In this document: piece by piece, positions 33,843 through 47,534 of the stretch
How the letters are laid out: every line of letters starts with the position of its first letter
How positions within the stretch are numbered: position 1 is the stretch's first letter
Source: Bradyrhizobium sp. NFR13
GTDB taxonomy: Bacteria > Pseudomonadota > Alphaproteobacteria > Rhizobiales > Xanthobacteraceae
Length of the DNA stretch: 49,730 nucleotides
Direction of reading: 5' to 3'
NCBI RefSeq assembly: GCF_900114605.1
Contig: NZ_FOTP01000012.1
Span: forward strand, 1 to 49,730
Position numbers and translations under genes: made by a program
Notes under the pieces: model-generated
What the model saw: only the letters and a program-made list of their open reading frames with translations
What the model was told of the DNA's origin: nothing
Databases searched by the model: none

Positions 33843-33940
33843 TGCTGCTACTCCGGACACAAGCAACGTTTGATAGATTGTCACGGATAGACTGCAGATC
33901 AAGCACCATATTCTTGGCCTAACGAGCTTTGAGGTCAGAA

Positions 33941-33974
33941 GAAAGGGCGCACCGATCACTCGGCGCGCCCTTTC
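33941..33974 (-). terminator. Intrinsic terminator of rreB
   Basis: On the minus strand GAAAGGGCGC (33974-33965) pairs perfectly with GCGCCCTTTC (33950-33941) over a 14-nt loop, followed by TTCT. It lies 58 bp after the rreB stop. A further GGCGCC-CTC-GGCGCC hairpin at 33993-34007 sits between the stop codon and this terminator. Confidence 0.75.
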
Positions 33975-34031
33975 CCTGTTCTCGCTGAACCAGGCGCCGA
34001 GGGCGCCCTTGCGAAGCTCAAAGAGTGAGCC

Positions 34032-34076
34032 TAGCGGGCGGCCTCAGCGAGGTGACAGCGCTTGGAATTAGACACT
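34032..34076 (-). CDS. rreB: RreB 14-residue peptide, small mRNA with extended Shine-Dalgarno
   Basis: A 14-codon ORF (product MSNSKRCHLAEAAR) with GTG start at 34076 and TAG stop. The minus strand from 34092 to 34076 reads GAAAGGAGGTGGTCCAG, which pairs with 17 nt of the usual alphaproteobacterial 16S rRNA 3' end (CTGGATCACCTCCTTTC) with a single G-U. It includes the G of the start codon. From memory, this fits the described rreB small mRNA of Bradyrhizobiaceae: about 165 nt, 14 codons, GTG start, 17-nt extended ribosome site, weak translation and ribosome-linked stability. The predicted transcript here (start near 34104, end near 33936) is about 168 nt. The length of the peptide means similarity-based annotation normally misses it. 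Confidence 0.88.
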
Positions 34077-34110
34077 GGACCACCTCCTTTCATTGTTCGT
34101 GACACCTTGA

Positions 34111-34139
34111 GTATAGGAAAGATTCGCGCCGTGTTAAGG
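34111..34139 (-). promoter_or_regulatory. Promoter of rreB
   Basis: On the minus strand CTTAAC (34139-34134) and TATACT (34116-34111) are separated by 17 bp, close to the alphaproteobacterial housekeeping consensus (CTTGAC, 17 bp, TATA-type box). Transcription would start near 34104, about 28 nt upstream of the GTG codon. Confidence 0.7.
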
Positions 34140-47421: not shown

Positions 47422-47534
47422 AACTGTCATCGCCCGGCAGCGCGAAGCGAGCTTCGCTGGATGACCGGGCGATCCAGTACACACAAGCCTTTCGGCGTTT
47501 ACTGGATCACCCGCCTTCGCGGATGATGACAGTT
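47422..47534. repeat. REP-like intergenic inverted repeat (second type)
   Basis: Terminal inverted repeats AACTGTCATC (47422-47431) and GATGACAGTT (47525-47534) are perfect. An inner GATCCAGTA/TACTGGATC pair and an inner AGCGAAGC-like palindrome complete the structure. Its ends differ from those of the elements at 269 and 46396, so this is a separate repeat type. It sits between the DUF35 and hydratase genes. Confidence 0.75.

Follow-up and report, generated by a model that had tools for sequence, protein, structure and literature searches.

The minus strand of a 49,730-nucleotide stretch of the Bradyrhizobium sp. NFR13 genome (the whole of the DNA analysed, here called the window) carries a short predicted transcription unit of the rreB type, in which a 14-codon frame is headed by a Shine-Dalgarno (SD) sequence able to pair with 17 nt of the 16S rRNA 3' end. 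The 17-nt complementarity, the spread of the locus among relatives, a conserved folding potential, and a frame and stop that are kept while the peptide is under no detectable selection are demonstrated below. On balance, we lean towards reading such loci as ribosome-clamping RNAs, in which initiating, reading and stopping would be what is selected, rather than the peptide, and which may sense or buffer free 30S subunits. The rreB kind itself was already known; what is added here is a link to the Rfam entry CC2171 and an argument that the peptide matters little.

A 14-codon unit and its predicted pairing with 16S rRNA

Read along the minus strand, on which all features below lie, the unit is made up of a promoter-like site, AACAA, the 17-nt SD, a GTG start, 14 codons, a TAG stop, hairpins and a terminator hairpin. 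The promoter-like site, of sigma-70 type, was found at 34137-34110 (TTAACA at 34137-34132, a 16-nt spacer and TATACT at 34115-34110); an earlier note on this DNA had given a promoter at 34139-34111. The site agrees with the consensus at 10 of 12 positions, and one such site was found against a shuffle mean of 0.2. Taking the start from the -10 box and the end from the U-run, the transcript is predicted to measure 165 nt (34103-33939). The AACAA element (34097-34093) stands just upstream of the SD, and the frame (MSNSKRCHLAEAAR) runs from the GTG at 34075 to the end of the TAG at 34031. The earlier note had also described a GGCGCC hairpin and an intrinsic terminator (33974-33941); a 15-pair hairpin does precede a U-run in the predicted RNA fold, and fold and sequence together place the putative intrinsic terminator at 33973-33939. 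No minus-strand terminator was listed by the terminator scan of the window, which probably counts the tail only from beyond the A:U pairs of the stem. A plasmid search gave no match.

The genome holds two 16S copies, and its 16S reads antisense ...AGAAAGGAGGTGATCCAGCCGCAGG. When the 16S 3' end was examined and the duplex computed, positions 34091-34075 (GAAAGGAGGTGGTCCAG) proved pairable with it over 17 nt with one G·U, as had been claimed, although the coordinates first given (34092-34076) were one base too high. The predicted duplex amounts to -31.8 kcal/mol, compared to -11.6 for an 8-nt SD. The GTG had been thought to lie within the paired stretch; only its first base does, being the last paired base of the extended SD. 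Beyond helix 45, some 15 nt of 16S rRNA are free, and the complement thus spans the whole free tail plus the last bases of helix 45. Such a sequence is rare: apart from the two antisense 16S sites, the 15-nt core AAAGGAGGTGRTCCA has a single site in the 6.2-Mb genome (reversed control, 0), and up to three mismatches in 17 are found at 31 genomic sites versus 8 in the reversed control. Beyond 16S and the rreB-type locus, the next-best genomic sites are nine with two mismatches, eight of them copies of one repeat. A REP-like palindrome (GAAGGCGGGTGATCCAGTA...TACTGGATCGCCCGGTCAT) was also observed on the minus strand at 47440-47520 of the window, with eight exact copies of GAAAGCGGGTGATCCAG elsewhere in the genome.

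Relatives of the locus and their named RNA families

The locus is present in all 18 genomes of its own genus that were searched, and 43 of 121 relatives had some DNA match, several of these short. An exact 18-mer, AAAGGAGGTGRTCCARTG, was found in 95 of 149 family genomes (a single site in 93 of them); a class-wide sample of 387 genomes yielded it in 43 and a phylum-wide sample of 397 in 60, with no hit of the reversed control in any of the three sets. By hand count, the phylum draw splits into 60/161 Alphaproteobacteria versus 0/236 other Pseudomonadota. A scan of named genomes returned at least 117 stretches, and 92 of the 116 kept sites listed are alphaproteobacterial by NCBI name, the others listed being single or few Phycisphaerae, Planctomycetia, Acidobacteriota, Gemmatimonadota, Myxococcia and more, including one gamma- and one betaproteobacterial label. 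Mostly outside the Alphaproteobacteria, the 18-mer was also seen to head ORFs of 9-21 codons (L046, L052, L053, L055, L063, L064, L065, L090, L113, L114, L128, L133, L138 and L143), eight of them containing GAGGTGG internally (..SEVA.., ..EVV..); they may represent a separate family of small mRNAs with an extended SD.

After deduplication, 257 sites were sorted by in-frame peptide motifs, a naming that favours open frames, above all in classes B and R, into B (the window's class, 60), C (93), R (49), S (17) and other (38). The ORF has 14 codons in 55/60 B loci and 18 in 45/49 R loci; C ORFs have 18-28 codons and mostly SHC at the start, and S ORFs, of 22-27 codons with one of 15, begin SSE or SSD and mostly use ATG (one S locus, a Krumholzibacteriia record, fits the regex alone). 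Common to the classes is a leader of AAC element, extended SD and RTG, the last of which was built into the search pattern. AAC followed by A, C or G lies within 13 nt upstream in 60/60 B, 88/93 C, 43/49 R, 15/17 S and 21/38 other loci. The G immediately 5' of the searched pattern, which extends the pairing to 17 and was not demanded by it, is present in 59/60 B, 93/93 C, 42/49 R, 15/17 S and 28/38 other loci. In 54 of the 60 B loci a TA(C/G/T)(A/C/G)NT box lies 8-40 nt upstream of the SD core, a count made without a control.

The earlier note had equated the locus with the rreB small mRNA of Bradyrhizobiaceae, an identification that the comparison supports. The assignment of the window locus to the rreB kind is well supported by its 14 codons, GTG, 17-nt SD, 59 further B-class loci and presence throughout its genus. 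B-class loci include five records of Bradyrhizobium species and three more labelled Bradyrhizobium, Bradyrhizobiaceae or Afipia (Bradyrhizobium records: L079, L087, L095, L096, L118 and L132), and a Tardiphaga sp. P9-11 ORF (L122) is identical to that of the window. Reportedly, rreB has a 14-aa ORF, GTG, a 17-nt SD and a length of about 165 nt in the same family, all of which the window matches, its transcript size by prediction; judging from the Bradyrhizobium relatives, the peptide motif KRCHLA would be the rreB core. Described by Hahn et al. (2017, RNA Biol 14:1353) as a small mRNA of Bradyrhizobiaceae, rreB reportedly co-sediments with 30S, is said to be weakly translated, hindered by its long SD and GTG, and reportedly gives a more stable transcript once the start codon is replaced.

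By ORF size (18 aa) and hosts, we take the R class to be rreR of Rhodobacter and Roseobacter, which has the window's extended-SD leader with GTG and a short unit; its SRVILERGVGT-type 18-aa ORF, however, is without evident similarity to that of the window, and its 3'UTR differs. The C class, to judge by model scores, corresponds to Rfam RF01867, "caulobacter sRNA CC2171": in a scan of 18 loci, the five that passed the cut-off were all C (5/7 C loci in the set), whereas the four R and S loci tested scored 32.5-41.3 bits. The window RNA aligned end to end with model positions 1-159 (E 5.9e-11), but its 54.6 bits fall short of the 75 that the curated cut-off demands. It has the extended-SD leader of the RF01867 consensus, but the closing helix CAUUGUC/GACAAUG, which joins codons 2-4 with a pre-terminator strand, is mismatched and not formed. 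The window locus is thus kin of RF01867 in leader and plan and not a member. The model matched 40 of 61 genomes of relatives at E ≤0.001 (9 over the cut-off) and 69 of 290 genomes across the class (10 over the cut-off), and among 14 control genomes Caulobacter alone. Six class genomes (G346, G130, G151, G253, G326 and G352) had two or three matches each at E ≤0.001, and the other matching ones had one. A homologue of CC2171, MH_s33, also figures among sRNA candidates of Mesorhizobium huakuii (PMC5596092).

The terminator hairpin is followed by a same-strand hypothetical ORF (33842-33603), as might be expected if the unit were a transcription attenuator or leader for a downstream gene. We regard this as very improbable, given that the ORF has no Pfam match, that neighbours differ between genera and that the largest recurrent neighbour cluster spans 12/60 B loci, its frame lying where a tRNA-Gly gene sits in Bradyrhizobium-type loci. 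With no neighbour gene common to more than 12/60 B loci, the rreB-type locus looks stand-alone, and synteny was set aside as a functional clue. R loci do share neighbours, the same upstream same-strand membrane-protein gene lying within 3 kb in 28/49 of them (e.g. L051), in contrast to B and C loci; it presumably resembles a queuosine precursor transporter. Of ten Bradyrhizobium-type B loci scanned, nine have a tRNA-Gly (tcc) gene a short way upstream of the unit on the other strand (L208-L215 and L227; L218 is without it), and in the window no tRNA is that close to the unit.

Selection on the frame, the stop and the peptide

A strong SD and a conserved ORF are also what an ordinary small-protein gene would have, its 14-residue peptide having a cellular role. 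All classes retain frame and stop, most B loci have an unaltered KRCHLA core, and within the ORF of 78/93 C loci there is an in-frame TGG motif. At codon 15, B loci have TAA in 23, TAG in 22, TGA in 10 and TGG in none (5/60 stop elsewhere), and at codon 19 the 49 R loci have TAG in 22, TGA in 14, TAA in 9 and TGG in none. Frame 0 is open across the shared span in 60/60 B, 92/93 C, 49/49 R and 16/17 S loci, against shuffled expectations of 0.76, 0.65, 0.39 and 0.35, a count weakened by relatedness and by the class naming; in B, frame +1 is also open in 57/60. Against frame selection, indel lengths in R and C ORFs showed no preference for multiples of three (6/40 R and 22/68 C by pairwise alignment, which depends on gap placement).

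The pattern of substitutions argues against the small-protein account. The pN/pS ratio is 0.97 in B, 1.04 in C and 0.91 in R, with 0.65/1.15, 1.07/0.88 and 0.73/0.84 in the respective other two frames, such that in no class does the true frame have the lowest of the three values. Changes are spread flatly over the three codon positions (863/822/617 in B, 5101/5481/5022 in C and 5408/5072/4960 in R; the comparison of equal-length C ORFs was ungapped and may blur the positions), whereas four of five sets of neighbouring ORFs show a position-3 excess, clearest at 1335/793/3025; the remaining set (2431/2190/2711) is a frame overlying the tRNA-Gly region of Bradyrhizobium-type loci. Among the 30 unique B ORFs of 14 codons, codons 6-9 and 13 do not vary even at the third base, codons 3, 4, 11, 12 and 14 change amino acid freely, and most changes outside 6-9 and 13 are amino-acid replacements; the 17-codon ORFs of L034 and L185 are outside these 30 and differ in the codons invariant there. 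By eye, moreover, one leader heads peptide classes without evident similarity. According to PMC7217052, a 14-aa B. japonicum peptide and an 18-aa Dinoroseobacter peptide are unstructured by CD and NMR; their sizes match rreB and rreR, of which they would be the products. We therefore consider a small protein of cellular role improbable.

The frame and stop are kept, and the amino acids, as judged from substitutions, are not detectably selected; the complete gene that the earlier note had seen stands in the former respect and not in the latter. In our reading, translation and termination would be selected and the product would not.

RNA folding and a putative ribosome clamp

The window RNA is predicted to fold at -88.2 kcal/mol (z = -6.3), with none of 200 shuffles as good, and B-class folds have a median z of -5.8 (a sample of 15 among 59 sequences). 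Helices were followed in an alignment of 50 of the 59 unique B loci (A1; nine were left out by hand, namely near-duplicates and two with long inserts). In hairpin P1 (34086-34049), the SD (34086-34080) pairs with TCACCTC (34055-34049), which lies within the ORF and repeats a segment of the 16S tail, and 34077-34072 pairs with 34061-34056, covering the start codon. Three P1 pairs break in 2/50 sequences and the core pairs are invariant; no compensatory change was found in this alignment, only A/G against U at one pair. Helix P2 joins codons 10-11 (34048-34044) to the CAGC of the 3'UTR (33988-33984) and can be extended by pairing 34051-34049 with 33983-33981 (overall span 34051-33981), an extension that excludes P1. 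CAGCGAG lies near or after the stop in 60/60 B loci, against 1.6% in shuffles, and L034 and L185, in which the middle of the ORF is rebuilt (CGCCGGACCCTCGC or CGCGGGACCCTCGC), P1 lost and the stop moved, keep it despite the loss of P1. The invariant GAG after CAGC extends P2 only with P1 open, which suggests two alternative states.

At one P2 pair (alignment columns 55/150, n = 50) we counted 25 G-C, 19 A-U, 3 G-U and 3 broken. Codon 11 (Gly or Glu) correspondingly tracks a C or U in the 3'UTR, with GGG-C in 33, GAG-T in 21, GGG-T in 3 and GAG-C in 3 of the 60 B loci, P2 being kept in 57/60; with about six joint changes and only two well-supported independent pairs, this covariation allows no statement of significance. 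A third hairpin, P3 (GGCG/CGCC, 34007-33993), lies in the 3'UTR, and its C-G to G-C swap in 10/50 aligned sequences amounts to about one event on the tree.

The C class has helices of its own. Two of them link the ORF with the pre-terminator region, helix 2 changing on both sides at 6/6 pairs, and together they have 23 two-sided-change cells versus 6.4 shuffled in a selected alignment (A2), whose pairing percentage is inflated by how its rows were chosen: 16/93 C loci were dropped before listing, having no pre-terminator motif by regex or not being unique, 54 of the remaining 77 were used, and one row (L266) is shortened. In a swap test, 9 of 21 minority C rows pair better with their own UTR than on average over majority UTRs and 12 do not. 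Such a helix is not universal, since runs of at least seven pairs occur in 0.80 of 91 C loci (controls in C: shuffled UTR 0.195, other ORF segments 0.289) versus 0.18 of 17 S, 0.03 of 60 B, 0.25 of 48 R and 0.11 of the 38 other loci. Counting independent covariation events on trees of B and C was abandoned, the trees being weakly resolved with too few supported pairs. In S-class loci such as L037 and L102, a GCCTC motif recurs by eye in the ORF in differing frames, hinting at an RNA-level element.

The copy of the 16S tail inside the ORF might instead act on other transcripts: in a trans-acting sRNA, the mimic UCACCUC would bind the SDs of other mRNAs, and the 17-nt SD would open the mimic on the ribosome. 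Every base of the mimic is the same in 30/30 unique 14-codon B ORFs, and the CC2171 kin are filed as sRNAs. Pairing with its own SD, however, explains the invariance of the mimic, the mimic is lost in the two 17-codon B loci, and by eye C- and S-class ORFs are without it at that place, so that we judge such an sRNA unlikely.

What we favour, with reserve, is that the RNA clamps the ribosome. P1 would hold the SD by means of the 16S-tail mimic inside the ORF, and a free 30S subunit would dock through the 17-bp duplex, opening P1; opening the whole SD in the predicted RNA costs 8.7 kcal/mol, far below the 16S duplex gain (-31.8). The SD is not exceptionally sequestered by energy: in 30 B sequences the core has a median of 8.0 kcal/mol versus 5.8 once the downstream sequence is shuffled (a value at least as high arises in 22% of shuffles), only modestly over shuffles in B, as in R, and below shuffles in C and S. 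As the first base of the start codon lies in the duplex, the 3' half of the duplex would have to unzip before GUG enters the P site, from which slow initiation and a lingering 30S would follow. The initiating ribosome would then translate the 14 codons, passing the 5' strands of both P1 and P2, and stop at a fixed place, leaving the RNA remodelled and exposed to decay, with the 14-residue peptide as a by-product. Through such ribosome-driven remodelling and decay, the RNA would sense or buffer free 30S subunits. The earlier note had suggested that its main role may be that of a regulatory RNA binding the ribosome, and this fits the finding that it is the RNA, and not the peptide, that is conserved.

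In the open full-text literature we found no paper in which any two of CC2171, rreB and "extended Shine-Dalgarno" occur together; the Hahn 2017 study, outside that scope, may say more. The present comparison joins two catalogues, that of small mRNAs (rreB and rreR) and that of Rfam sRNAs (CC2171). We raise, tentatively and as less than an even prospect, that rreB, rreR, CC2171 and at least one further ORF class form one alphaproteobacterial superfamily of ribosome-sensing RNAs, in which the leader would clamp the full 16S tail, an intramolecular fold would compete, initiating, reading a short frame and stopping would be preserved over the peptide, and free 30S subunits would be reported or buffered. 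Small ORFs are usually taken as evidence for small proteins; here the stop is preserved and the amino acids drift, and the locus offers a testable case in which translation may be under selection for what it does to the RNA or the ribosome.
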